From the NCBI GenBank assembly GCA_002261195.1, contig MVBO01000039.1, positions 1 to 64,000 on the forward strand: 64,000 nt of DNA, given 5' to 3'. Position numbers and translations under genes: made by a program. The notes under the pieces are model-generated. The model made no database searches. It saw only the letters and a program-made list of their open reading frames with translations, and was not told where the DNA came from. Within the stretch, counting starts at the first letter, position 1. Every line of letters begins with the position of its first letter. Source of the DNA: Bifiguratus adelaidae (Eukaryota; Mucoromycota; Endogonomycetes; Endogonales). This document shows, piece by piece, positions 743-22,388 of the stretch.

Positions 743-1608
743 TGTGAGTGCGAAAGCTTCCAAATTGAACGAGCCGTTGTCGAGCTTCAAGAGGTGGAGT
801 GTGTTGAAAACAACTTGACTGAGTACCTCTTCAGTAGCGGCCGAGGAATGCGCGCGTCCAATTTATAGATCTACGACAATCAAAGACTATTTATTGTCCG
901 TTAAGAACGCGAAGAAATTAAAATGAGGTTACGCGGAGTGCGGGTTAGGGTTCGGATCGGATTTTGAGAAAATCCGTTCAGAGTTGCTGCAAACCTCCTC
1001 ACACTCCGGCTACTTCTTCCACACTATGCGCTCACAGTGCCCACTTACAAACTCCCAAGCAATATCAACGGAAATCAGTTGTTGGTCCGGTCAGGTGGCG
1101 AAGACAAGCAAACTATGGCCACTACTCCATCCGCGGAAGGTCCAATTTGGAGGCAATTGACAAATTCGCTAACACTATGACAGCGCTTTACTCTGCCCGT
1201 TCATGTTAAAGGCCCTTATCTGCAATTACCACACTTCCTATGTGATTCATCCCCTTGATATTATCGTAAAATAACAATGTAACTTTCAATTCATAGCACG
1301 TTTACGCTTCTAATTCGTACTTTACGACGATGGAGGGTAATTACATACAATGCTGCTTCCCGAAGTTGTGCATACGGTACCCTGATCCTGACCTTGATTA
1401 TCCAATCTGTCGCGGACATATCGGATGTAGAATCTTGGCGTTTGTACTTTGTATCCGGTCGGTTTCGCCGAGCGGCGATCTCTCCGTTATTTCTCTTAAG
1501 GAGTACGTACATATAACAATCAATGAGCCAACTACCCAATAGCTACTCTGAAGAGTCTAGCATTGAAGAATCAAGCATTTCAGAGATTCTAGTCATCAAT
1601 CTATAATC
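743..1608. other. intergenic region, no gene seen
   Basis: This stretch of about 870 bases separates two divergently transcribed genes. It holds only short ORFs without family resemblance or splice logic. It presumably contains both promoters. I see no repeat or RNA gene in it. Confidence 0.5.
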
Positions 1609-2589
1609 ATGGCAGTCCTCCTCACAGGCGGCACTGGCAAGACCTCCGTACGCATTGCGCGCTTCTTGCAAGATGCAAAGATCCCGTTTCTCTTGGCCTC
1701 TCGCAGGGGTGAGGCTGCAGCTCCATCTGGGATGCCCGCGACAAAGTTTGACTGGCTTGACGACTCGACCTTTGAGAAGCCTTTGCAACATAAATTCCCT
1801 GGAGGAGAGGGTATTTACGCAGTCTACTTGGTTGCGCCTGAGGTCGCTGATCCAGCAGCACCAATGAACGCCTTCGTCGACTATGCAATTAAAGAGCATG
1901 GTGTCAATAGATTCGTCCTCATAGGCGGTAGCTCCACTGAGCCTGGCGGGCATCACGTCTGAAAAGTGTGGCAGCACTTTGTTGACATTGGTGTCGAGTA
2001 TTGTGTTCTCCGTCCAACTTGGTTCATGGGTACGTTTTCGCCCGGACTTGTGGTAAACGTCTTCAGGCTAACGGCAAGGGAATAGAAAACTTCTTGGAGG
2101 AGGCGCATCGTTTCACGATCAAAGGCGAGGGCAAGATCTATACGGCGTGTGGCGACGGCAAAATCCCGTTCGTTAGCGCCACGGATATCGCAGCCGTCGC
2201 ATTCCGCGCACTCACTGATGAGAAACCATACAACACCGATTATAGGGTCCTGGGGCCTGAGCTATTAACCTACGATGAGGTATACCGTCTTTTTGGTTTA
2301 TAAACTCGCGTGAATGTAAACGCTGACAGTCGCTATGCAGATTGCGGCAAAACTCAGCAGCTGTCTGGGACGCGAAGTCGTGCACGTCAAACTCACCGAT
2401 GAGCAAAGAACCCAACGGTTTATGAGCTATGGCCTCCCGGAACACTACGCAAATTTTCTTACCTCCCTTGAAGTTTCAGCTGCTTCTGGAGTGGAAGACA
2501 GGATGAACGATGCCGTGGAGCGAGTGACTGGACGGCCTTCGCAAAAGTTTGATGTATTCGCGCAACAGCACAAGACGGCATGGCAGTAA
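1609..2589 (+). pseudogene. NmrA-like NAD(P)-binding protein with in-frame TGA
   Basis: The product resembles the agroclavine dehydrogenase/NmrA-like branch of atypical short-chain dehydrogenases: LLTGGTGKTSVRIA at the N-terminus binds the dinucleotide, and [11 protein letters not shown] is the typical central motif of that branch. The exon model is 1609-2029, 2086-2279 and 2341-2589, and all phases close. The one lesion is a TGA at 1960-1962, between STEPGGHHV and KVWQHF. Relatives usually have a glycine there (GKV), so GGA to TGA is the simplest explanation. No usable intron removes the stop. Everything downstream is still well conserved, so the lesion is recent or is a sequencing error. 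If real, the product would end after 117 residues without the C-terminal substrate-binding part. Role and substrate are unknown. Confidence 0.72.
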
Positions 2590-3097: not shown

Positions 3098-4796
3098 TTA
3101 CGCTCGCGGAAGGAATCTGACCTTGAAAGGTAAAGGCGACAAGGTAAAAGCAAAGTCAAAATCCTCTGTGTCGATAGGACTATCTGTCACTATCGAAAAT
3201 GAAGAGAGAATGGCACTTGTCACTACCAAAAGCTCGAGTTCAGCCAAGTGCATTCCAGCACACACACGGCGTCCGAAGCCAAAGGACATGTGGTCGCGGT
3301 CTTCAGGCTTGCCATTGACCAAGGAACTTGATGGCTGGCGAACGTCAAGGTATCGCTCCGGTTTGAAGGTGTCGGGATCCTTGTATCGACGAGGATCGCG
3401 ATTCATGGTGTATACATTGAACATGACTGTGCTATCCTTGGGAATGTGATAGCCTTCAAAGATGTCATCCTCCATCACCGAATGAGGTACGGCCAGCGGT
3501 CCTGCAGGATGTAGTCGCATTGTTTCACGGAGAGTCGCATTAAGATAAGGCATATCAGCTGCATTCTTGAATGGGGGAAGCTCCCCAATTCCGATGTTTG
3601 CCTTAATTTCTGCGTGCACTGATTGTTGAATATCGGGATGGTTTGCCATTTCGGCAATCCACCATGCAATGGTTGATGCGGTGGTATCCTACAATAAGGC
3701 AAGATGAGATATCCATTGGAAAAGCGCAGGAGATCATTGACTCACGTTGCCAGCCAGTATCATAACCGATATGAAGGTCAAGACTTCTTCATGGTCTAAT
3801 TCGCCATTGGACTCTTTCTCTAGCAGATCTTTGCAAAAACACTTTACGTCCTCGCCTGTGTCCAAACGTTTTCGGAGCTTATCAAGCATCGCGTCAAAAC
3901 GGCTGAAGCGGCGTTTGGTGAGGGCCACCACGTCTTCTTCCTTGACGCCGACCCAGCTCTGGGGTAGGATGCGTAGGATTGGAAAGATGCGCGCGGGATG
4001 CGCTGTCAGAGAAGCATACTTGAAGAACTTGTCGACAAGCTCCATTTCCTCCACAACCCAAGGATCGAAAGGATGATCATGTCGCTCGTCAACAAGCACT
4101 TTGGCAATCACATTGTACGTGAACAACTGAATGAGAGGAACCGGATCGACTGCTTCTCCATGAGTTTTTCGAACGTTGTCGACAAGATGCGTGGCTTCTC
4201 GATCGATGTATTCCTGATACTCTGGAAGTCGTCGTGGGCCGACTCTGTCCATGAAGATCCTTCTGCGCTTTCTCCAACCCTCGCCATAAGGAGTCATGGC
4301 AAACTGTTTGAAATCCGCGCTCTGGATCCGAGAAAAGTGACTACTGGCTGGTCGGGAGTTGTACAGTGCTCCACGTTTTGAGCACAGCTCATACGCAATG
4401 TCGGAATCACTGAACGAATCAGCATCTTCGACCACTGAATGAACTGCATCGATACTCACTTGACAACTACCCAGTGTTCGGTACCGATATCAAATCGAAA
4501 GATTGGGCCCAGCTTCTCACCCCAATATTGAAGGCATTGTAGAGGACCCTGCTTCATAAGATGCATGTTGCCTACAACCAGATGAGGATCGCTCTTGACG
4601 ACCTTTGTTTCATTTCCTGCTTACCCACAATCGGCAGCGCAGGTGGTCGTGGCAGAGGTTTCCCAGTCTTGCCGTTTGTTCTTGGAGTGGAGAGGCTCCA
4701 GATAGCAAACGAGACAGCAACAGCTGCGGCAGTCGCCAACGCAGCTTCTTGACGTGAAATATCCGCCAGGGCAGGTAAAGATACCTTGTCGAGCAT
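3098..4796 (-). CDS. cytochrome P450 monooxygenase
   Basis: A complete microsomal P450 of 512 residues from four exons (4796-4625, 4571-4460, 4409-3746, 3688-3098) with all phases consistent. An N-terminal hydrophobic anchor (about residues 18-37) is followed by a proline-rich hinge (LPRPPALPIVG). The I-helix has AGNDTTAS, the K-helix ETMR (ExxR), and the haem loop is FGFGRRVCAG with its Cys ligand. The domain order and length match fungal P450s of the kind often annotated as O-methylsterigmatocystin oxidoreductase-like, but the substrate cannot be told from sequence. It is expected in the ER membrane, with electrons from NADPH-P450 reductase. The start was chosen because it places the anchor at the N-terminus. 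A 7-bp-arm inverted repeat lies about 140 bases upstream. Whether it works with the neighbouring cluster is open. Confidence 0.95.
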
Positions 4797-6746: not shown

Positions 6747-8029
6747 TTAGAATTCCTTGGCTAGACCTTGTTCTCGGAGAAAGTCTTGGAATCGTCTCAC
6801 AATGGGCTCCATACCGCCTTCATCAACGGTAAATCCAAGAGAAAGAGCATAAGTATTGTCAAAGCGTGCCGGCCATGATGATACTACGCGACGATTGGTT
6901 GCGTCATCCTTGAATTCAACAAGCTTGAGTGCTCTAGTGACAAGAGACAAAGGGATATTGTGTGAGTATCTTATAGAGGATATCTTGCCCACTTACTTTT
7001 CACCTGCGACGCGTCTGAGAGCTTCCAATTCCTCGCGGACGGTGACGGTAAAACCAGGAAGGCAGACTGTACGAGTATACGGCTTGAAGGCTTCGGCATG
7101 AATATGCTTGGCGACGACGAAGTTTTTGATGGTGATCTCGGGACTAGCCACCCAAGCAGCAAGTTCCAACATGGGCGACTCCAAAGAGTCTCCGACCGGG
7201 CAGGTAGCCTTGAGTCCCTGTAGGGGCTCTCGGATGATACCGGAAATGAAAGCTGAGGTGGCAGCAGACGGTACACCGGGACGGACGACAATGGTGGGAA
7301 GTCGCATGATGCGACCATCGACGAAGCCACGGCGCGTATATTCGTTGATGAGCAGTTCCGCACCGAGTTTTCCGCAGCCATAAGAGCCTTCGGGGGTAGC
7401 GATCGTCTCTGGAAGCACAATTTCTGGCTGAGCATTGAGTTAGAACAGCTTGACCATGTGTACCCTATTATTAATTACCAGTGCGCCGCCGTAAACTGCT
7501 AACGAACTTGTAAATATGAATTTGATGGGTTCAGCGGAACCAGAATGGCGAGCGGCTTCCAACATCAACCGAATGGAATCGATATTCACCTTGAGGCCAA
7601 GATCAAAGTTGTCCTCGGCTCCCCGAGACATGATGCCGTGAAAACAGTAGATGGTGTCAGGAACACCGAAACTTGTTTGGAAAAGTGCCTTGACCTCGGC
7701 GGGGTTGGTCAAATCCGCTTTGATGCAAATGCAAGAGTCTTTGCTTGGTGCAGTTGGTTCAACGATATCAGCAAGAATGAGCTTTGCGTTGGGTGTCTTT
7801 GGGTCCACGAGTAATTCTTTGACAAGCTGTTGAAAGGCAGAAGTCAATACTAGCGCAACAGGCTATGGTCGATGCAACCCACCTCGCCGCCGAGCCAGCC
7901 GGCTGCACCCGTGATAAGCACAACATTGTTGTGTAAGGCGCCGTTTGTATGTCCGTTGCCGTTGCCTCCGTTGGCATGACCGTTGGCGGGGCGGTTGACA
8001 CCGTTAGAAGCGGGAGTGTCTTGAGTCAT
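6747..8029 (-). CDS. DenD-type D-erythronate dehydrogenase-like SDR
   Basis: An extended short-chain dehydrogenase of 370 residues from four exons (8029-7883, 7826-7479, 7427-6997, 6933-6747), all phases consistent. After a Gly/Asn-rich N-terminal tail, VVLITGAAGWLGGE binds NAD. The catalytic Tyr and Lys are in SYGCGKLG, and LPTIVVRPGVPSAATSAF, SGIIREPLQG and a late WPARFD are the hallmarks I recall of bacterial DenD, which oxidises D-erythronate at C2 with NAD+. The family assignment is by similarity to those blocks. The exact substrate (erythronate or another tetronate or sugar acid) is inference. The gene is divergent from the RpiB-type isomerase, sharing a 351-base promoter region, which supports joint control within the cluster. 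The extra N-terminal tail (about 30 residues) shows no mitochondrial-type charge pattern, so a cytosolic enzyme is likely. Confidence 0.85.
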
Positions 8030-8380
8030 TCTGATTGGTTTGTATATGTGTATGTCCTCGTGAAAAGTAACGAACGCTTGTTGGCAAAGGCCAAGTCTGG
8101 TCGTAATATATGACTTTCGGCCGTCCCCCGCAACCTTGTGACGGCCCGAGCTGGACCTTCATCTTTCCGAATGTGGGGTATAACCAAGAATTCGGGTCCG
8201 GGTTTATATGTCTCCGTGTTTAGCAGGCAGAATGGAGTGAGCGAAATAAGCACCGTGGATAGTCCTAGATTTAAGGATGCCCAGTCCATGGTGAATATGA
8301 ACGTGGAATATCCGACAGTCACCCATTCTCGTCTTTATCCGTCAATATAACTTCTTCTCTCTCTACTTCAATTCAGTACG
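8030..8380. promoter_or_regulatory. divergent promoter between DenD-like and RpiB-like genes, with inverted repeat
   Basis: The 351-base interval between the two start codons holds CCGAAT at 8167-8172 and ATTCGG at 8190-8195, an inverted pair of CCG/CGG half sites 17 bases apart, of the kind Zn2Cys6 dimers recognise. A further TCCGGG lies just downstream. A Zn2Cys6 regulator is encoded 4.4 kb away, so direct control of both genes from this site is plausible but unproven. Confidence 0.45.
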
Positions 8381-8899
8381 ATGCCTGCAACAGATCTGAC
8401 ATGCAATCAAACATTTCGCATTGTTGTCGGCTGCGATGACGCTGGCCTTCAATACAAGGAACAATTGAAGAAAGATCTCTTAGACAACCCAAAGGTGTCC
8501 AAACTCTTCGATGTCGGTGTTTCCGCGGACGATTTGACGCCATACTATCCCAATGTTGCCATCGCTGCGGCGAAAATGGTCGCCAATGGGGAAGCGGATC
8601 GTGCGTTGCTAATTTGTGGCACTGGACTCGGGGTAGCCATCAGTGCCAACAAAGTCAGAGGCGTTCGAGCTGTCACTGCTCACGACAGCTTTTCGGTCGA
8701 ACGAGCCGTTCTGAGCAACAATGCACAGGTCCTGTGTATGGGACAGCGAGTGATTGGCATAGAACTAGCAAGGCGGTTGGTCAGAGAATGGTTGACATAC
8801 CAATTCGATTACACTTCAGCTTCTGCAGCCAAAGTGAAAGTCATTTCCGATTTCGAGAGTCAATCTTTCCCAACGAAAGCAGCACCTGCAGCTGTTTGA
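8381..8899 (+). CDS. RpiB/LacA-family sugar-phosphate isomerase (EYI2/DerI-like)
   Basis: A single-exon gene for 172 residues, the normal length for RpiB-type isomerases, which interconvert aldose and ketose phosphates. [16 protein letters not shown] carries the active-site Cys of the family, [10 protein letters not shown] the His, and [12 protein letters not shown] is the usual helix-turn. At the N-terminus the protein has [10 protein letters not shown] where ribose-5-phosphate isomerases have DHAG, so the His of that motif is replaced by Asp. Related enzymes of erythritol catabolism (Mycobacterium DerI, Yarrowia EYI2) convert D-erythrulose 4-phosphate to D-erythrose 4-phosphate. That role is inferred here from family and neighbours. 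It is transcribed divergently from the DenD-like gene. It has no introns although most neighbours do. Confidence 0.88.
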
Positions 8900-9253
8900 T
8901 CAACGCAATTTCCTACTGTTAGATGCGAAGAGGAGCAGTGGTGTACGGTATTTCGGCTTCAGTGTCCTTTTAACAAACCAACATGTACCATATCGATTGA
9001 ATATAGTTAGCTTACGCTCGAAAGAGCATTGATCCTGGAAGATGAATATGTCATTGATTTTCACAGCTCAAACATCTCGGTGAAGTCGAGGTGTCGACAG
9101 TCTTTCACTGCAATTCGCTATCCAACAACACAAGAAAGAGACTGGTCCAACTTCACACGTAAAGGAAAGAGATCTCGCTCGCACTGCTGTCTATAAACCA
9201 TACAGGCTATGTAGACTGTTCTACAAGGCAAACTTTCACAGAAATGACTAATC
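8900..9253. other. convergent 3' intergenic spacer
   Basis: 354 bases between the ends of the isomerase gene (plus) and the aldolase gene (minus). Presumably both 3' UTRs. No ORF of note, no repeat and no RNA gene seen. Confidence 0.5.
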
Positions 9254-10344
9254 TCAAGCCTTTCCGGCCGAGTGAAACAAGGTCATAAACCTCTCACATA
9301 CTTTGGCAAAGACTTCAGTAGCCTCTTCGACAGCGTCGGGAAAAGGCTTGGACTCAAGCGCTATTGAGAGCGTCTTTACGTATGGATCGCGAGCCCAGCT
9401 ATTCACATTGATTTTGCTGATGCCATTCTTGATACATTCTTGGAATAGAACATCCGGTAGCTCATCGGTGCCGTGCAAGCACAGATAGGGAGGCCGTCCT
9501 TGGAAACGATCTCGGAGATCCTTTAGGCTGCGAATTGTCTATTAGTAAGGGAGAAAACAGAGGAATGCAGCTCAACGTACATGTCCTGGCGGAAATTGGG
9601 AGGGTTGATGTATGATCCATGAAGATTGCCGATACTTGGGCTAAGGATCACAGCGCCCGTTCTGGAGAGCAAATCGCGTTAAACATAGCCTTTACAGAGT
9701 GCCCTCAACCTACTGCTTCATAAAATTCTCGGCTTTTGAAGGATTGGTGAGCTTTGCATCAGAGATATTGCGTAGTCCTGCCTCTCCGCCTTCCAACCGA
9801 CCAAGTTCGACCTCCACTGCAACACCGCATTTGGCGGCTCTTTCGACATGCGGGCGAGCCAACTCGATATTTTCTTCGTCCGTCTATGGAGACAAGGGGC
9901 ATCAATTTCAGGACAGCTTAAAGCAGTCCACGCGAAGACACTCACTTCGGCATGACTGGCATCGACCATGATGCTGTCGAAAGCAATGCCTTGCTCGGCT
10001 AGACTCAGCGCCAGCTCTATATGTTCGGGATCAGTGGCATGGTCCAGATGCACCGCGATCGGCACCGATGCGTTCCGTGCACTAAAAAAAGCAGTCCTTG
10101 AGCGTCAAGGTGCGCAAGGTCACTCGTAGACTTACACGTCAAGGCAGAACTGCAGGAAGGGTCCTTTGCCGTAAGCCAGAGTGACAGGAAACAACTGCAA
10201 TATAGCGGGACTCTTCATACGTTCCGCAGCTCGTACCAAGCCAATAGCGGACTGAGCGTCGTAACAGTTTTGCGCCAGTATACCATAGCCTTCGCGCTCA
10301 GCCTTCTCAAGAATAGCCAATGTCTTGTTGTTTTGCAAGTGCAT
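9254..10344 (-). CDS. class II (zinc) fructose-bisphosphate/tagatose-bisphosphate aldolase family protein
   Basis: A complete 289-residue class II aldolase in five exons (10344-10136, 10081-9946, 9883-9714, 9661-9581, 9527-9254). Expected blocks are present: GYGILAQNCYD near the N-terminus, AVHLDHA with the catalytic Asp and first zinc His, DSIMVDASHAE, VEVELGRLEGGE with the zinc Glu, SIGNLHGSY and LCLHGTDELPD with the later zinc His residues, and SKINVNS at the substrate-phosphate site. The family cleaves ketose 1-phosphates or bisphosphates, or keto-acid phosphates, into DHAP-type triose units plus an aldehyde. The loop after the last His reads HGTDELP instead of the more common HGGSG/HGTSG type, so the substrate may differ from fructose bisphosphate. 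Its short length groups it with GatY/KbaY-like forms. It is divergent from the MFS permease, sharing a promoter with the 19-nt motif. Confidence 0.88.
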
Positions 10345-10541
10345 AATGCCTTTCTAGATAGTGATTGGAATAATGGATCCTTAAATGCTTTGCCCAACTC
10401 TTCCGGGAACAAACATCGACCGTGACGTCATTGAGTTTAGAGGAGATTGTCCCGGATGCCTGGGCGGGTGTCTTCGGGGCATGGATCTGAACAAGCTCCA
10501 TTTGGTAAAGCTCGGATATGAACCAGCGAAGTTGCCCGCCA

Positions 10542-10560
10542 GGAATCATATAATTCCGGG
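10542..10560. promoter_or_regulatory. cluster motif copy 1: GGAATCATATAATTCCGGG
   Basis: A near-palindrome (GGAAT, 6-base AT-rich core, ATTCC, then GGG) in the divergent promoter between the aldolase and the MFS permease. Seventeen of 19 bases are identical to the copy at 15683-15701 ahead of the kinase gene. It is probably an operator for a dimeric regulator, perhaps the Zn2Cys6 protein encoded between the two copies. The surrounding 80 bases are rich in CCGGG. Confidence 0.6.
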
Positions 10561-10792
10561 TGTGAGATCTTTCCTGGGGCGGCCATTTCCCGGGTTGGTG
10601 GGAATTGCGGGGTCCCACAAATGCGGGAAAAGAACAGCCAACGGACAAGCTTGGGAAGCAATCAAACACCGGTTAAGGATCTGGGAAAGTATATAATCCT
10701 GTCAGTGGTGAGGGAATAGCGTCTGCATCGGTTCTTGTTTCTGCCTCCTACCTTCTGTCAAATCTCGAGTCGACTTTACAACACATTGATAC

Positions 10793-12271
10793 ATGTCCTT
10801 TGACAGCTCGACTAAAATGTCTGATACCAACGAGAAGGGAGAAACTTGGCACGTTGAGTCTGCCCCCTCGCAAGACGGGTCTTTCGAAAAGTATGTGATC
10901 GATCCAGAAGCCGAACGTCAGTTTCTGCGCAAAATCGATTACCGTATCGTTCCCATGGTATGGCTTCTCTATACCATGTCTTATCTTGATCGTGGGAACA
11001 TTGGAAACGCTGAGGCTGGTGGCATGCAACAGTCTCTCAGCATCACCTCAACACAGTACAGTGTTATTCTCTTGGTGTTCTTCATTTCCTACGTCATATT
11101 CGAGGTGCCGTCCAATATGATCTTGACGCGTGTACGTCCATCCATCTATCTGTCCGTCCTTTGCGTCATCTGGGGTATTGTTGCTGCCTGCATGGGCGCT
11201 GCTCAAAACTTTTCGCAGATCGCCGGTATTCGATTCTGCTTGGGCATCGTTGAGGCTGGTTTCTCGCCGGGTGTTGGCTTTTACATGTCCAGCTGGTACA
11301 AACGTCATGAACTTGCTCGCCGATATGCTGTCTATTACACTGCCACTGCTGTCTCTGGAGCCTTTTCTGGTCTCTTGGCCGGTGTGATCACCAATCATCT
11401 TCACTTGGCTCGTGGTATCGAAGGCTGGCGATGGCTTTTCATCATTGAGGGTATTGGATCGTGCGCTGTAGGCTTGTTCTCCTGGATTGTTCTTCCCGAT
11501 TGGCCTTCCTCCACGAAGTGGCTAACAGAAGACGAGAAGATTTTGGCTGCGCAACGTCTTCTTTCCGACGATATCGGTGCTACGCAAGGTGAAACCAATG
11601 CTCCCAGCCACTGGCAAGCGATGAAATCCGCCTTCTGCGATTGGCGTACGATCTTCCTCTGCATCATGTACATGCTTTCAACGGGTGCTCAAACGATCCA
11701 GTACTTTATCCCAACTCTTGTCGGCCAACTTGGTTACACCAGTTACTCTCTTCAATTCATGACTATCCCCATCTACGGTGTCGCTTTCGTCTGCATTCTC
11801 GCCTTCTGCTTCACATCAGATATTCGAAAAGAACGAGCCAACTATATCACCTACTCTGCATTGCTCGCCACGGTTTCCTTTATCATTACAGTTACTGTGG
11901 ATGACAAGAAAGTCAAGTATGCCTTCTTGTGCTTTGCTGTTGGAGGTGTCTACGCAGCTTGTCCACTCACTCTCATGTGGGTCGCCAACATCATTTTACA
12001 TCCTGCCGAAAAGCGGGCGGTTGCCATTGCCATCGTCAACGCCCTAGGAAACAGTGCTTCCATTTACGGTTCCTTTTTGTGGCCATCTTACACTGGACCT
12101 CGCTATGTGCAAGGCTTTGCAGTGACCACCATCTTTGTCTTTTTGCTTGCCGTTTTGGCCCAAGCGCTCAAGGTTCTTCTTCGCAAGTATCCTTATGGCA
12201 AGCTCACCGCCGAGGACGCACAAATATTTGCAGAGACAAACGGTGTCAAAGCAACCGACTCATCCGTGTGA
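10793..12271 (+). CDS. MFS permease, anion:cation symporter (Dal5/TNA1-like) family
   Basis: An intronless 492-residue transporter with about 12 membrane spans and a cytosolic N-terminal tail. RKIDYRIVPMVWLLYTMSYLDRGNIGNA is split here as the first span (IVPMVWLLYTMSYLDR) with the DRxNxGNA motif typical of the allantoate permease family. GIVEAGFSPGVGFYMSSWY is the family's fourth-to-fifth span region. Members import carboxylated small molecules such as allantoate, nicotinate, tartrate, galactonate and other sugar acids, usually with protons, at the plasma membrane. A sugar-acid substrate would fit the DenD-like gene nearby. The start ATG at 10793 opens the only long frame. The next ATG, 8 codons in, is also possible. 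It shares a promoter with the aldolase gene and the 19-nt motif lies 233 bases upstream. Confidence 0.92.
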   Translation: MSFDSSTKMSDTNEKGETWHVESAPSQDGSFEKYVIDPEAERQFLRKIDYRIVPMVWLLYTMSYLDRGNIGNAEAGGMQQSLSITSTQYSVILLVFFISYVIFEVPSNMILTRVRPSIYLSVLCVIWGIVAACMGAAQNFSQIAGIRFCLGIVEAGFSPGVGFYMSSWYKRHELARRYAVYYTATAVSGAFSGLLAGVITNHLHLARGIEGWRWLFIIEGIGSCAVGLFSWIVLPDWPSSTKWLTEDEKILAAQRLLSDDIGATQGETNAPSHWQAMKSAFCDWRTIFLCIMYMLSTGAQTIQYFIPTLVGQLGYTSYSLQFMTIPIYGVAFVCILAFCFTSDIRKERANYITYSALLATVSFIITVTVDDKKVKYAFLCFAVGGVYAACPLTLMWVANIILHPAEKRAVAIAIVNALGNSASIYGSFLWPSYTGPRYVQGFAVTTIFVFLLAVLAQALKVLLRKYPYGKLTAEDAQIFAETNGVKATDSSV

Positions 12272-12827
12272 AGATTCTATGGTTTTGCTCACGACCAACC
12301 TTGTAATATACTCTCAATGTACATGTGGTTTCAATACTAGTAAAATACTGCGATAATTGTGAAAACGACCTCTTCTTATGTGAACTGGACTGCAAGTACG
12401 GGTCTGTCAACACGACAATGTTTTGTTCATGGTGCCCTGGTTGTATCAGCCTTTTCATCCAAGCGGTTAGCCCCATAATTTAAAGATTAGGCGATGTTGC
12501 GCTTCCAAGAGATCCGTACTCATACATTCATGGATCAGACAACCGAGATGTCCCGCATTGTTTGTACGAGGGCAGTCAACCCCCGCACGTACTCATACAT
12601 GATCATGCCGCGTGACCATCAGAGAAGCGGAGCTTGAAGCTCGCTACCCACCATGAAATGCCAGAATAAAGCAAACCTGGTCTTCTTCCATTGTTTCATA
12701 TTGTTTGCTAAATTCATTTAACGCCAGTTATGGGGTAACGGTTCCAGCCTTTCTCCATCAGTGACATTACTTTACTCTGCTTCACCATTGCCTGCATGTT
12801 TGGTGAGGTAGGGTGTAATAGTGGCTA
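12272..12827. other. intergenic region before the regulator gene
   Basis: 556 bases with no convincing ORF. It must carry the regulator's promoter. I find no copy of the 19-nt cluster motif in it, so autoregulation through that site is not suggested. Confidence 0.45.
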
Positions 12828-15572
12828 ATGGCTGAAAGGAACGGAGAATTACAGGCCTTTTGGTATACGCAAGACCCGAACAATACCGCTGAACGAACCC
12901 ATGGCGCCGCTCATGGGAACGGTCACTCCAAACCCACGACAGACAAGCGAACGTCACTAGCATGCATACGATGTCGCGAGAAAAGGGCTCGATGCTCCGT
13001 AGACAGGCCCCAATGTCAGGCGTGTGAGAAAGCGCAAGCAGAATGCATGTGGCCTGTAGGCCGAAAGCGAAAGCGGACGCGAAAGGAAATGAACGAAGCA
13101 GAAGGATTGGATACGACAAGCATGCCACGTACTCAGAGAACCTCGGATGGTTCGATCGGCGGTTACATTGAAAGAAGGCCATCCAATGTGAGCGAGCGCG
13201 ACCGCACGTCTGTTCAATTCAACAACCCTTATCAAAACACTTCCCGATGGAATGACGCTATACCTGAATATAACAACAATATTGCCACTCAAGATCCTGG
13301 CTCGACCACATCAGACACGCAAAGCTTACCAGATAATACCGACCTAGATCAACTTTTTCAAAGCATATTTTCCGCCGACTCGTCCTCAGATGCACGCACG
13401 CAAGTCCAGGCTGCGAATCTAGCTCGAAATCTGGATTCGCAAGTTGCTGTGATAAGCGGAGATCCTGCAAAATCCGACAATCTAGAACTGTATTACTACA
13501 GAATCTCCGGTTCGACCGCTATCCATCCGGGAATCAACAGAATCAGCCTAAAGCTACAGGCGCGTAATGTGTCATCCCCGATACCCGAAATCGCCTCAAG
13601 GTCGGAGCGCGAGAATGATCCTGGCAAAAATCAACCTACACTCGATATCGGACAGCGCTTGTTTGATGACAACGACCTTGTCCTTCCACATATCTATATC
13701 CCTCTCCTTGACACATTCTTCCGAACAATGTCTCAACATTTCCCATCCATTAATCGACGTCGAATGAGTGAGCGTCTAGAAACTGGAACCATGTCGTCTT
13801 TTCTCTTGACGTGTATATGTGCCATCTCGGCTCGGTTCGATTCCAGTCTTGGAAAAGGTTCACTGAAGGTAAGAGTAGATCATGAATCACGCTGAATATC
13901 CGCGCTCATGGTGGCATAGGCTTGCACACCTTTCATTGCAAAAGCGCAGCTTCTCGCGGTGGATCTTTTGCATTTGCCAACACACGATGTCGTTACCGGT
14001 CTCCTACTTCTCGCGTGGGCACATTACGGCCAAAATTCGGAGAGCGGCTTCTGGCAGTATTCAGGCATCGCTATTCGCATGGCTATCGATCTCGGCCTCC
14101 ACAAAAATTCTGAACTGTACGAGTCGCCTGCCCATGTTGTTCGAACGCGGTTGTTGTTCTGGAGTCTCTTTATTACCGATCGAGTACTTTCCTTTGTCAC
14201 GGGAAGAGTGGCTTCCATACCAGAAGATATCATTGAAATACCTCTACCTACCGACGCCGACCTGTTTCCAGAACCGGCAAGCGATATGAAAATGGACATG
14301 GTCCCTCCTAATGTCGAAGTCGTACCGTTTCCGCTCGTGGTGCGTCTTATGGTCGTTTGCGGGCGCATCAGCAACTGTTTGAACGGTCGTCGTGGAAAAG
14401 CGAGAACGTTCGTCTCCCGACCTGACACGACACCGGAGCTTCTTCATGAGCTACAAACTCAGCTTATACAGTTTTATACCAACATTCCGGAAGCTATGAA
14501 GTGGTCCGTGGATGCGTTCAAGTATCAAGAATCAAGGGGCAGCGGTGGCATTTTTTTATTTCTGCATCTTTGGGCCAATGCGGTGCTTGCTCAGACTTAT
14601 CAACCCGAACTTTCCGGTATCCGTTCAGGCGAAGAAACATCCGTCTTTAAGGATGTCAGTCGGTCTGTGAAAATGGCGCTGACGAGTTCTCGTCTCATCA
14701 GCGAGTGTCTCGTATTTGCCGACTTGCTCTCATCTCTAAGTTATGTGAGTTGTCATGGGGTTTCTCTGTGAGTTGGCTTTTTGCGGACTCTAATATGCCG
14801 TTTTGTGACAGTGTGCCAGTCCTGGAATAGTCCAACCGATATACGTTGCAGGGTGAGTATTAAGCGTCCAGGGAAAAGCGGCTAGGAAAATACAATGCTC
14901 AATGTTGCCTTGTAGTCTTGCATATGCGCTGGACATGAAGACGAGCGAATATACTCTTGGGTCGAGAACAACTAGCGAGGGTACGCCAACTGCCACGAAT
15001 GCCTTCCTTAAATCAGTTGCCCGTCAGAATCTATCGGCATTGATGAAAGCGCTGCAACGGATGGAGCAGTATTGGTCTGGTGTGTCTTATGTGTCTGAAG
15101 TTTTGGAGCAGCGCATCTCAGGTAAGTACTGACCATACAATTCCTGGTACCTGGAAATTCATCAACATAATGTTAGGACTGGATCTACCGAGAATCAATC
15201 CTACAGCCAGTTCAAAGAATACCTTTATCGCGCTGCCAGACAAGGGTATCCTCAAACGTTTCACTGGTTTGTTTCCTTGCTTCTCATAGAATGAGATTGC
15301 TTAGTCGTCTTCTCGTTTGCAGGCAAGAAACTTCCACATCACACTGCTCCTGCAACAGAGTCTTCTCTTCAGGAGGCAATCAAAGAGAATGCCACGTCTG
15401 GTAAGTCGACTTACATGCCTGTACCACGAGACTTTGATGCTAATCTTCACTGCCTGTAGAGTACTTCTCGTTGACCGATTTGTTGTCAACCTACAGCGTA
15501 GAAGAACTGTTTGTAGGGCCAGCAGATAATATTGACCTCGCCACTCTCCTTGGTGCAAACAAACGCTCCTAG
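12828..15572 (+). CDS. Zn2Cys6 fungal transcription factor
   Basis: A 797-residue regulator from seven exons (12828-13868, 13920-14744, 14812-14852, 14916-15121, 15177-15266, 15323-15400, 15460-15572), phases all consistent. Residues about 46-73 form a binuclear zinc cluster with spacing C-x2-C-x6-C-x6-C-x2-C-x6-C (ACIRCREKRARC onwards), followed by the basic linker GRKRKRTRKE. A long fungal-specific transcription factor domain follows: AQLLAVDLLHLP, LLLLAWAHYGQ and IAIRMAIDLGLHKN are its usual helices. Such proteins bind CGG/CCG half sites as dimers and often control the genes beside them. Its position between the permease and the kinase makes it the likely cluster regulator. The target ligand is unknown. 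It is not a simple match, from memory, to the Yarrowia erythritol regulator EUF1. Confidence 0.93.
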
Positions 15573-15682
15573 CACTGCATTAACCCGTGTACTTACTAGT
15601 TCCAAGTTAATGCGCTCTCCTATGCTGCCTCTAAAACATCATACACCACGTCGTTCCTTCGTCCGAGCGTGCGAAATATCGA

Positions 15683-15701
15683 GGAACGATATAATTCCGG
15701 G
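15683..15701. promoter_or_regulatory. cluster motif copy 2: GGAACGATATAATTCCGGG
   Basis: The second copy of the near-palindrome seen at 10542-10560, here 273 bases ahead of the kinase start codon and 111 bases after the regulator gene. It differs at two of 19 positions. As at the first site, it is followed by GC-rich sequence with several CCGG elements. Confidence 0.6.
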
Positions 15702-15973
15702 AGATGGCCCAGAAAATGGGTAACCCGCCATTACCCCGGATCGTTTCCCAATTTGGACCGGAAATGAAAAGAGTGAAGTTCGGAGGGGCTGCAGCTTGCT
15801 GCTGTGGAGGGATAGGAAGTCTGAGAGGATTCCCGGATCGTGCCGCTCAGGCATTCCATGATATATGTAGTCTCATCTTCCATTCCTGAACAAGACATCA
15901 ACACATATCGCAAGCTTTAACAACTTTTACATCCCTCAGTCCACAGTGTTCGTCGATCGTCACATATTCCAAC

Positions 15974-17938
15974 ATGACCGACAGACATATCTTTGAAAAT
16001 CACCATACGCTAGTCCTTCGTTCTCTTAAAGGACTCGTAGCATCTCATCCGGGTCTATCACTTATTCCCTCGCTCAAAGTTGTCACGAATGCCGCTCACG
16101 ATACAAAGAAAGTCGCAACCATATGTGGTGGTGGTGCAGGTCACGAACCCGGTTCCACAGGTTTCGTAGGACGAGGTTTATTGTCGGCAAGCGTTAGCGG
16201 CGATGTTTTCGCCAGTCCTAGCGCCAAGCAAGTCTACGGGGCCATCAAGGCTGTCCCCAGTGCAAAGGGAACAGTGTTGATTGTTACGAACTACACCGGT
16301 GACAACCTTCATTTTGGCTTGGCTTGCCAGAAAGCGCGAGCCGACGGAATTGAGAATATTGGAATGATTGTGGTCGCTGACGATGTGGCTGTCGAACAGA
16401 AGCCTGGATCAATGGTCGGCCGCAGAGCTCTAAGCGGCATCATTCTAGGTAAGCATCTTGTGACCAAAGCAATCAACTGCAAGCGTCGCTAATCGCACAT
16501 CAATTCAGTTTGCAAGATACTAGGAGCTGCTTCCGAGTTCGATTATTCGTTTACCCAAGTGATGAATCTAGGGCACGCTGTCAACAAGAACCTTGTGTCC
16601 ATTGCCGCCACACTAGATCACTGCCATGTTCCCGGTCGTGATCATTTTGCACAGATTCCAAAGAATACCATCGAGATTGGGTTAGGTCTACATAACGAGC
16701 CCGTAAGTCAAACTGAAGGCGATGGTGCTCTATGCTAAGCTTGCTGCCTCATCCAGGGCTACTTTGTCGTATCGCCTCAGCCTTCCTCGTCCGAGCTCAT
16801 CGCACGGATGCTACATCTACTTATGGATCAGGATGATCCTTATCGCTCTTTTGTACCATTTTCACCGTCCGATGACGTTGTATTGTTTATTGCCAACATG
16901 GGAGGCATGAGCGTACTGGAAATGGGAGCAGTAGTCAACGAAACCCTTGATCAGCTGGGTAGGTGAAATAGAATGCGACGCATGCGTATGTCTAATCTTT
17001 TGCACAAAACAGGGGCCAAGGGAATTAAACCAGTACGAGTATTCAATGGACCTTTTATGACTTCAATGAACGCGCCGGGGATCTCAATCTCATTACTGAA
17101 CCTCACAAACATCGCAAAGACATCGAATCATACACTCGACGAGCTGCTGCAACTTATCGATGCTCCACACGGAACTTTCTCTTGGCCAGGTAGCGCTGTA
17201 TACCAGCAATTGCCGGACGCTATCATCAACCGTTCACGTGAAGAAAAATTCCTCGCAATGCCTGAAATGACGGCAAAGGCGGAGATGCAAGCGCCCAGCA
17301 ATCTTCAATTTGAACCTGACGTTATCGTTGATACGGTCAAGCGGGCAGCTCTCGCAGTTCTTGAAGCTGAGCCTAATTTGACCAAATGGGATGCTATTGT
17401 TGGCGACGGCGATTGCGGCGAAACATGTGCGATGGGCGCAAAGGCTGTCCTTGACGCTATCGACAAAGGGCTCGGATCAGATGGCGATGTTGTCCACCTT
17501 TTGCGCGAGATCACCGAAATCATTGATGAAAGCATGGGCGGAACATTGGGCGCAATTTTGGGTATCTTCTTTGCTGCGCTCACGCAAGAAGTGCGCAAGG
17601 CGGCGGCATCGTTGACCACAACGCCGAATGCTACATTCTGGGGCAACGCAGGTGCAGCTGCAATAGCGACTTTGCAACAAAGTACCGCTGCCAGAGTCGG
17701 TCACAGAACAGTCATGGATGCTCTTGTCCCGTTTGTGGAGAGTCTCCAAACAACAAATGACCTTCAACTTGCGATTGATGCCTGCAGACAGGGAGGAGAA
17801 AGTACTGCGCATCTTGCTGCTAAACTTGGTCGTGCCACCTACGTGTCCCAAACGGAAAATGTACCCGACCCTGGCGCCATGGCTGTGGTCGCATTGACTG
17901 CTAGCTGGCGACAACCACATGTTGCTTTGGTAGGATGA
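15974..17938 (+). CDS. dihydroxyacetone kinase family (DhaK-DhaL fusion), candidate erythrulose kinase
   Basis: An ATP-dependent ketose kinase of 598 residues, the usual length of single-chain fungal DAK proteins. Exons: 15974-16448, 16509-16702, 16757-16958, 17013-17938. The DhaK half has CGGGAGHEP and GFVGRGLLSASVSGDVFASP, NYTGDNLHF with its Asp, and GLHNEPG with the His that binds the substrate carbonyl as a hemiaminal. The DhaL half (from about residue 390) has VGDGDCGET for the Mg-ATP Asp residues, ESMGGTLGA, GHRTVMDAL and DPGAMAVVAL. Known members phosphorylate dihydroxyacetone, but relatives (Yarrowia EYK1, Mycobacterium LerK/DerK) act on L- or D-erythrulose. With an erythrulose-phosphate-type isomerase and a tetronate dehydrogenase in the same cluster, a C4 substrate is a fair inference. 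The enzyme is expected in the cytosol. Confidence 0.93.
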
Positions 17939-21349: not shown

Positions 21350-22388
21350 CTAAGCCTGCTTCACAATGACTTCAAGTTCTTTCTTGAGCTCCTTTGGATC
21401 CTTTTCGTAACCCGGTTCAGCCTTATCATGGAAGTCCGCCGCGTATCTGTTGGACTCTTCAAAGACACCATATGTACCGAGATTAATATAAGCTGCAGAA
21501 TTCAATCGGTCCTGGACACCGTTCTTCGTATCTTCGTCCCATTGCTTTTGGCCTTCCTGGAACAAGTACTCCACAGGAACCTTGTCAACAGCCCAGGTTT
21601 CAGGTGCAGTGAGTTCATTCAACATGGCCAAGACCTCGTTCGCGCTGACCGTGTAGTCCGCAAAATAGGCAGGGCGATTAGCAAACTTCTCGGGATTGGA
21701 CAAGACGGCCACCGTGGCTCTGCCAACCATGTCGATGGCTGACATGCTGATCTTTTGATTGCCTAAGCCAAAGACGGTGACCCTTCTGTTCTTTGCGTCC
21801 ACCCAAAATCGCCCAAGAGGGATAGCTAAAATGGCATGTCAGCATGGACAATCCTGATAAGGGCAAGCTGCTTACCCCAGTCATAGAATGGGCCAACAAT
21901 GATGGCTATCCATCTCAGACTGCCGAGCGCCGCTTGCAACTCCAAATACTTTTGCGCCTTGATCTTTGGCTCAAAAATGTGCAATTCTGGAGCATTTTCG
22001 TTGAAGGTGTCACTGCTATAGTCCGGGGTAATGATGTGCTTCACTCCAGCTTGGATGGCCGCATCCACAATATTCTTTTGGTGGGCAGCGGCCGCAGGAT
22101 TGAAGGCTTCAACGATCGCATCCTGGCCAGTAAAGGCTTGCTTGAGCGATTCTGGCGAGTCATAGCTGGCGGTGGCCACATGAACATCGGCGGGGAAGCT
22201 ATAGCCCGAAGTGGCGGAGCGGAAATGATGGTGACCTTGAATCGAGCATCAAGTAGGGCCTTTACGACAGGTCTACCAACGTTGCCGGTTGCCTGGAAGA
22301 ATCATACGTGTTAAAATTTCGGACAACAATGGTCACGTCTACTTACTCCGAGAACAATGACGTTTTTTATCAATGTCACACTGCTCAT
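21350..22388 (-). pseudogene. NmrA-like NAD(P)-binding protein with a one-base frameshift
   Basis: An atypical SDR of the NmrA/isoflavone-reductase-like group. Exons 22388-22347, 22292-21876 and 21825-21350 join with GATGNVGRPVVKALL at the dinucleotide site and later TPDYSSDTF, VGPFYDWA and GLGNQKISMSAIDMVG. The summed exon length is 935, one short of a multiple of three. The reading frame breaks between FKVTII and RSATSGYSFPADV (about 22216-22226 on the plus strand), where one C seems to be missing. Restoring that base would leave an open frame of about 311 residues, the normal length. Everything else looks intact, so the lesion is recent or a base-call error. Function and substrate are unknown. 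This is the second NmrA-like gene in the window with a single lesion. Confidence 0.72.

Follow-up and report, generated by a model that had tools for sequence, protein, structure and literature searches.

The question raised by this locus is which compound is broken down by a cluster of six adjacent genes at positions 6747-17938 of the window, the whole 64,000-nucleotide stretch of DNA analysed here, from the fungus Bifiguratus adelaidae (Mucoromycota). The genes encode a DenD-like dehydrogenase, an RpiB-type isomerase, a class II aldolase, a permease of the major facilitator superfamily (MFS), a Zn2Cys6 transcription factor and a Dak1-Dak2 kinase, and a preliminary description of the DNA had proposed that they form a catabolic cluster for a four-carbon (C4) sugar or sugar acid. 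All six genes were found where that description had placed them and all are intact: the spliced models read open from ATG to stop, and all 16 introns, 51-67 bp in size, are of the GT..AG type. A catabolic cluster centred on C4 compounds gained support.

We tentatively read the cluster as one co-regulated pathway in which a sugar acid is oxidized by DenD and decarboxylated to D-erythrulose, which is phosphorylated and converted to erythrose 4-phosphate. The anion-type permease would import the sugar acid, DenD would oxidize a hydroxyl near the carboxylate with NAD+, and the modified class II aldolase would take CO2 off the unphosphorylated keto acid to give D-erythrulose, which the Dak-type kinase would phosphorylate to D-erythrulose 4-phosphate and RpiB would isomerize to erythrose 4-phosphate. 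Substrates that would fit are five-carbon acids, for example D-ribonate, D-arabinonate or the branched D-apionate. A C4 acid that has lost CO2 is one carbon short of a C4 ketose; a correct back end of the pathway would therefore call for either an acid of five carbons or a polyol dehydrogenase at the front. One region encoding triose-phosphate isomerase (TIM) was found in the genome, which argues against a route through L-erythrulose, as this would need a second TIM-type isomerase, and for the D-series. The reading builds on features that were observed directly (the genes and their families, the contigs common to three of the genes, a promoter word, and active-site identities and changes); kinship suggests the step of RpiB and, with less certainty, that of the kinase, and the decarboxylation and the substrate are suggested by chemistry alone.

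The isomerase matched PF02502 and TIGR02133 (195.8 bits, cut-off 168.2), both on a slightly longer frame; in a further family test neither the window protein (146.8 bits) nor an actinobacterial relative (153.3 bits) was accepted. Its closest relative of solved structure is PDB 3qd5 (213 bits). It is 64-76% identical to actinobacterial RpiBs from the best 80 of at least 511 confirmed loci, in which genes were called by script up to 10 kb on each side. At eight positions of the substrate site (D16, D17, C76, T78, R105, S109, S145 and K148 in Coccidioides numbering) it agrees with every one of the 75 actinobacterial relatives compared. A DhaK-type kinase is encoded directly before RpiB in 66 of the 80 loci (the RpiB gene was not called in 6), TIM is nearby in 55, and AP_endonuc_2 and a PGDH_C dehydrogenase are nearby in 46. 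The operon found in these loci (L011-L090) is MFS-DhaK-RpiB-TIM-AP_endonuc_2-PGDH_C, often with an added short-chain dehydrogenase/reductase (SDR; the one scanned is of the GolD/DthD type) and an ApnL-like protein. We take this operon to be a D-apionate or tetritol route with DerK/LerK and DerI (also LerI), and its AP_endonuc_2 and PGDH_C neighbourhood is presumably that of a D-apionate route, which runs from oxidation and decarboxylation through erythrulose to erythrose 4-phosphate.

Erythrose 4-phosphate cannot form a furanose ring. In the RpiB of Coccidioides, according to the available part of its report (PMC3212906), phosphate is bound with one cation, the customary cations for phosphate are missing and so is the His that opens the ring, malonate occupies the site, the melting point is insensitive to ribose 5-phosphate, and the authors suspect shorter substrates. 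The RpiB of the Yarrowia cluster, EYI1, is required for prompt growth on erythritol (PMC5992420, in part), and the accessible portions of PMC12780249 and PMC10733421 support erythrulose-phosphate chemistry only. Because of the actinobacterial kinship, the site residues, the DhaK neighbour, the Coccidioides site and Yarrowia EYI1, our best guess is that RpiB would convert D-erythrulose 4-phosphate to erythrose 4-phosphate.

The kinase exceeded the cut-off for TIGR02361 (glycerone kinase; 620.8 bits, cut-off 574.95) and is the second Dak protein of the genome, its own paralogue being on contig C251. The residue before the NYTGD motif is Thr in the cluster kinase and Lys in the C251 paralogue, a Lys that we take to be Lys104 of E. 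coli DhaK. Among the best 120 of 2274 kinase matches, Thr stands at this position in 49 of the 51 nearest (P0241-P0291, which include a chytrid) and in 67 of the 69 further ones (P0292-P0360), and 73 of 75 actinobacterial kinases have Gly. Judging from sequence, the cluster kinase may be something other than a plain dihydroxyacetone kinase. His196 (DHCHVPG motif), which may bind the substrate in dihydroxyacetone kinases, is present in the window kinase, its paralogue, 51 of 51 nearest matches and 67 of 69 further ones; in 74 of 75 actinobacterial kinases Gly takes its place, which sets the window kinase apart from that type.

These residues bear on the first of two routes that the preliminary description had considered. 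As weighed here, DenD would oxidize C3 of D-erythronate, loss of CO2 would give dihydroxyacetone, and the kinase would form dihydroxyacetone phosphate (DHAP), with RpiB and the aldolase acting elsewhere. The glycerone kinase score and a His196 like that of the genome's own paralogue suit this route, as do the threonine 3-dehydrogenases that come after 2hrz in the list of solved DenD relatives. However, the genome holds another Dak protein with Lys before NYTGD, and RpiB is left unexplained though its promoter carries the word TCCGGG, so that we consider the route distinctly improbable. Through RpiB the evidence leans instead to the second route, in which erythrulose is phosphorylated, isomerized to erythrose 4-phosphate and condensed or cleaved by the aldolase. 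Neither route as written accounts for all of the genes, because the first leaves RpiB without a role and the second leaves DenD without one.

The pathway from a sugar acid to erythrose 4-phosphate, which combines the two, would give both of these proteins a step and accommodates the genes better. The aldolase fold is present (PF01116, 237.8 bits), and in the best 120 of 878 matches, which include its own deposited protein (P0121), the catalytic Asp83 and the metal ligands are each found in 119 or 120. In classical enzymes a loop of the form HG[GA][ST] is, we assume, what binds the phosphate of DHAP. The cluster aldolase failed a test for HG[GA][ST] with NxDT, having HGTD and NVNS, and the other PF01116 enzyme of the genome (on contig C216) is classical, with HGGS and NVDT. 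The Ser of the phosphate loop is changed to Asp in 118 of the 120 matches, and Arg245, after the NVNS motif, is found in all 120. The altered loop and Arg245 would fit an unphosphorylated substrate, the loop perhaps serving as the site for an unphosphorylated polyol end. Asp also occurs in the loop (HGAD) of 3pm6, which is among the closest solved relatives and is presumably the Coccidioides aldolase. Matches at E ≤ 1e-28 were found in 54 of 396 genomes from the phylum of genome G002, all at 38% identity or less, and no bacterial source of this subfamily was seen there.

DenD scored 313 bits against NF043036 (D-erythronate dehydrogenase), just under the cut-off of 325, and the two basidiomycete relatives that were scanned scored 295 and 298 bits. 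Its closest solved relative is 2hrz (190 bits), and the next ones include SDR-type threonine 3-dehydrogenases, enzymes that oxidize a beta hydroxyl. The closest NCBIfam models to the permease are anion permeases, all under cut-off; the preliminary description labels it Dal5-type, and it may be ACS/Dal5-like. Bacterial DenD genes (E ≤ 1e-35) were found in 15 of 394 genomes from the class of G002, and these together with one from the search of RpiB genomes gave 16 loci, of which the end of L145, L146, L147 and the start of L148 were unread. A permease related to that of the window (165-169 bits) is encoded in four of the 16 (L140, L141, L143 from Streptomyces, and L144), where DenD stands with OtnI-like, OtnC-like, DUF1537-like kinase and LtnD-like genes; the partners in L141 score over cut-off as 2-oxo-tetronate isomerase, 3-oxo-tetronate kinase and L-threonate dehydrogenase, and the decarboxylase reaches 227 of 250. 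Permeases in the actinobacterial RpiB loci score up to 182 bits against the window permease (40 matches). The permease relatives in DenD loci point to acids, and so, presumably, does the comparison with RpiB loci. DenD also occurs near DhaK-DhaL in genome G637, with an opposite-strand gene between them, and this case was not counted.

The company that DenD and the related permease keep in these four loci would suit a tetronate route run by non-homologous enzymes. DenD would convert D-erythronate to 2-oxotetronate, RpiB acting as OtnI would give 3-oxotetronate, and the kinase and aldolase would stand in for OtnK and OtnC, with CO2 and DHAP as products. The DUF1537 kinase family PF07005 had no match in the genome in an exon-wise six-frame search, which a diverged gene could escape, and within the cluster OtnI, DUF1537 kinase and OtnC are all absent, as the preliminary description had stated; elsewhere the genome has one PF01261 region and two PF00596 regions. 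The absence of PF07005 and the malonate in the Coccidioides RpiB site (PMC3212906, available part) also agree with such a route, but RpiB has all eight of the actinobacterial site residues, the Coccidioides site binds phosphate (same source), and the aldolase would need a phosphorylated substrate despite its altered phosphate loop. We regard this explanation as fairly improbable.

A rather unlikely alternative, though one that uses the RpiB kinship and its DhaK neighbour just as well, is a neutral C4 route in which DenD is a tetritol (D-threitol or erythritol) dehydrogenase forming D-erythrulose, the kinase and RpiB lead to erythrose 4-phosphate, and the aldolase joins this with DHAP to give sedoheptulose 1,7-bisphosphate or splits erythrulose phosphate. 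DenD presumably lies outside the known tetritol dehydrogenase families, the closest models to the permease are anion carriers, and a changed phosphate loop would be odd for a bisphosphate or DHAP enzyme. Yet an SDR over the GolD/DthD-family cut-off is encoded directly before kinase and RpiB in one actinobacterial locus (L068), and FbaA is among the erythrulose-phosphate synthase candidates in the part of PMC10733421 that was available.

Several points weigh against our own reading, the acid pathway ending in erythrose 4-phosphate. D-erythronate, the substrate of bacterial DenD, is a C4 acid and yields no C4 ketose by loss of CO2, and we know of no PF01116 enzyme that acts as a beta-keto-acid decarboxylase. 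DenD, RpiB and the aldolase were together in no bacterial locus examined; DenD had no match in the 80 actinobacterial RpiB loci within the genes called, 3 of the 15 RpiB genomes searched for DenD had a match, and aldolase-family matches in the RpiB loci were weak and came from 3 loci. RpiB was not placed in the basidiomycete clusters described below. The kinase is over the glycerone kinase cut-off and has the His196 that actinobacterial kinases lack, and the Thr/Gly signature before NYTGD has no tie to a measured substrate. The apionate reading of the actinobacterial operon is a tentative one; its ApnL-like protein scored 195.5 where the cut-off is 750, no NCBIfam model matched its AP_endonuc_2 protein, and its PGDH_C protein matched unrelated models only, far under cut-off.

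Whether the genes are regulated together was approached through their promoters. DenD and RpiB are divergently transcribed, as are the aldolase and the permease, and the regulator and the kinase follow on the plus strand. The window has 18 copies of the word TCCGGG, the highest-ranked 6-mer in the promoter test. This number is not above chance (shuffle mean 21), but 7 of the 18 copies fall inside three promoters, DenD-RpiB, aldolase-permease and kinase, which together make up 1,200 bases. The binomial p was 2.2e-8 for these three promoters and 2.9e-7 with the regulator promoter added, in which TCCGGG is absent; as the word was picked by looking, these values are optimistic. A milder control gave a weaker signal: the four promoters contain 9 copies of CCGGG/CCCGG, shuffled sequences contain 3.3 on average, and a count of 9 was reached in 24 of 1000 shuffles. 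A longer word, TATAATTCCGGG, has three copies in the 18.6 Mb genome, two of them inside the cluster; as its backward-read control has two genome copies, its rarity is ordinary and only its pairing in the cluster is notable. The sole other copy lies at C63:2791-2802, 2.8 kb from a contig end, and could belong to a further member of the regulon or have arisen by chance. No CGG-pair spacing motif was common to the cluster promoters. The promoter word suggests that a single regulator controls the five structural genes, and this could be the cluster's own Zn2Cys6 protein.

The preliminary description had named a lack of conservation in any relative as a ground for refuting the cluster, and this ground fell away: part of the gene set stays together in many mushrooms and related yeasts. 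The check covered DenD, the aldolase and the kinase, with the best 120 examined of 1507, 878 and 2274 matches, respectively. Contigs of at least 10 kb were matched across the lists by identical size, which gives no gene-to-gene distance and makes all counts lower bounds. DenD and the aldolase occur together on at least 43 contigs, mostly basidiomycete, out of 105 with DenD and 109 with the aldolase; at least 16 carry DenD and kinase, at least 17 aldolase and kinase, and at least 8 all three; DenD, aldolase or both are found on at least 25 of the 45 contigs of the nearest kinases (P0241-P0291). Locus tags of DenD and aldolase are consecutive in six species: Ganoderma (GSI_03006/03007), Agrocybe (D9613_009289/009290), Coniferiporia (M0805_005225/005226), Hebeloma (M413DRAFT_443234/443233), Tricholomella (D9615_008274/008273) and Termitomyces (C0995_000589/000590). 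In Marasmius (PQX77_014885/014887) and Paramarasmius (VNI00_011373/011371) the tags of DenD and the kinase differ by two. Because of these shared contigs and the promoter word, the gene set goes beyond chance. Ordinary pentose or hexose roles are conceivable for the aldolase and RpiB, but we give almost no credence to the idea that unrelated genes became neighbours by coincidence, given the contigs common in many basidiomycetes and the promoter word.

Three proteins from these searches had unusual models. P0103 (Termitomyces, aldolase and DenD) looks like two neighbouring models merged rather than a gene fusion, and counts as adjacency only. P0303 (Alyxoria varia) is an 857-aa Dak1-Dak2 kinase joined to a PF00596 aldolase domain, from an assembled-metagenome genome and possibly a model artefact; it was rejected as a link between kinase and OtnC, the aldolase domain being nearest PRK07044 with no OtnC among the 16 families listed. 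P0325 (Purpureocillium lavendulum) is an 830-aa Dak kinase whose C-terminal stretch weakly resembles TIGR02569 (62.3 bits, cut-off 136.75). For Cryptococcus neoformans H99, the Dak gene CNAG_00826 is given as higher than in three environmental strains in the accessible part of PMC4567374.

Named DenD matches among those examined are basidiomycetes (62-74% identity); the aldolase matched its own protein, basidiomycetes (64-85%) and two chytrids (64%), and the kinase matched basidiomycetes (50-64%), a chytrid (48%), ascomycetes (43-47%) and one protein labelled plant (Carpinus, 45%). No other mucoromycete name is among the 360 matches. This distribution, in which a mucoromycete set is nearest to basidiomycetes, suggests transfer of the cluster from Basidiomycota, but the trees do not prove transfer. 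An aldolase tree (37 of the 120 matches and the window protein) placed the window at the base of the basidiomycetes without resolving its position. A kinase tree (32 of the 120 matches and the window protein, leaving out P0289, P0290, P0326 and the genome's own paralogue) did not reject monophyly of the basidiomycetes to the exclusion of the window (p 0.159), a grouping of the window with Agaricomycetes (0.505) or Dikarya (0.201); an earlier kinase test (p 1.4e-47) is void, a metagenome protein (P0289) having been nested in the group. The dinucleotide distance between the cluster and 31 kb of other contigs is 38.3, within the 12.5-73.0 of the flanks (yardstick 17.0). The composition is native, and nothing in it hints at recently acquired DNA or at a contig from another organism.

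Table 1. Coordinates of the six cluster genes and of the promoter words in the window
Feature	Position	Strand	Exons or sites	Family match
DenD-like NAD-dependent dehydrogenase (extended SDR), 370 aa	6747..8029	-	4 exons: 8029-7883, 7826-7479, 7427-6997, 6933-6747	NF043036
RpiB-type isomerase, 172 aa; probable D-erythrulose-4-phosphate isomerase	8381..8899	+	intronless	PF02502, TIGR02133
Class II (FBA-type) aldolase, 289 aa, altered phosphate loop	9254..10344	-	5 exons: 10344-10136, 10081-9946, 9883-9714, 9661-9581, 9527-9254	PF01116
MFS permease, anion-type, 492 aa	10793..12271	+	intronless	PF07690
Zn2Cys6 transcription factor, 797 aa	12828..15572	+	7 exons	PF00172 and PF04082, each on single exons
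Dak1-Dak2 kinase, 598 aa	15974..17938	+	4 exons: 15974-16448, 16509-16702, 16757-16958, 17013-17938	TIGR02361
TCCGGG site, DenD/RpiB divergent promoter	8197..8202	+		
Three TCCGGG sites, aldolase/permease divergent promoter	10402..10560		10402, 10451, 10555; TATAATTCCGGG at 10549-10560	
Three TCCGGG sites, kinase promoter	15690..15837		15696, 15735, 15832; TATAATTCCGGG at 15690-15701	

The cluster aldolase is BZG36_02666 of B. adelaidae (100% identity over 100% of the query). This deposited protein is among the matches listed, and no identical DenD or kinase is among the best 120; the deposited Bifiguratus models of those two genes may be missing, wrong or outside the length range searched. 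By eye, frames resembling a cytochrome P450 gene lie just upstream of the cluster (3098-4489, minus strand), and NmrA-like NAD-binding proteins flank it (1567-1962, plus strand; 21350-22248, minus strand).

The locus as a whole matches neither the erythritol cluster of Yarrowia nor the D-erythronate pathway of bacteria, because the searches of the genome turned up a single TIM and no kinase of the DUF1537 family. The erythritol cluster of Yarrowia lipolytica (EUF1, EYK1, EYI1, EYD1, YALI0F01584g), as far as PMC5992420 was available, is like the window in being a fungal locus that combines an erythrulose kinase, RpiB and a regulator. Its further enzymes are an isomerase of the TIM family and an erythritol dehydrogenase, whereas the window has DenD, an FBA-type aldolase and an anion-type permease; the only dehydrogenase gene at 6747-17938 is DenD-like, with none of the EYD1 type there. 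EYK1 is presumably of the Dak type. The bacterial D-erythronate/L-threonate operon (DenD, OtnI, OtnK, OtnC, LtnD) has DenD and a related permease in common with the window, but the window cluster is without OtnI, OtnK, OtnC and LtnD, and its kinase, isomerase and aldolase are from other families. The actinobacterial operon shares the closely related RpiB, with its site intact, and a related permease; its kinase is without His196, and the window cluster is without genes for TIM, AP_endonuc_2 and PGDH_C. The Coccidioides immitis RpiB (3qd5, 3sdw, 3sgw) and aldolase 3pm6 are the closest solved relatives of the window proteins, and the unusual RpiB site is the same. No description of this gene set was found in the titles and abstract openings of open-licence literature, nor were papers on apiose or apionate, which is a weak negative.

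A bolder and rather doubtful reading is that this is a new fungal pathway. In it, DenD would oxidize a five-carbon or branched sugar acid, a class II aldolase that has become a decarboxylase would convert the unphosphorylated product to D-erythrulose, and an erythrulose kinase of the Dak type with an RpiB of the DerI type would lead on to erythrose 4-phosphate. Such a pathway would be a fungal counterpart of the actinobacterial operon built largely from other enzyme families, and common to Basidiomycota and one mucoromycete. The cluster offers a testable setting for three fungal enzymes that lack settled substrates, including the RpiB, whose solved Coccidioides relative reportedly has a site that is unusual for ribose 5-phosphate and may act on another substrate (PMC3212906), and the common promoter word makes co-regulation directly testable. 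If the pathway is true, it would add a decarboxylase to the aldolase family and show how rare sugar acids can enter the metabolism of mushrooms and soil-dwelling fungi.

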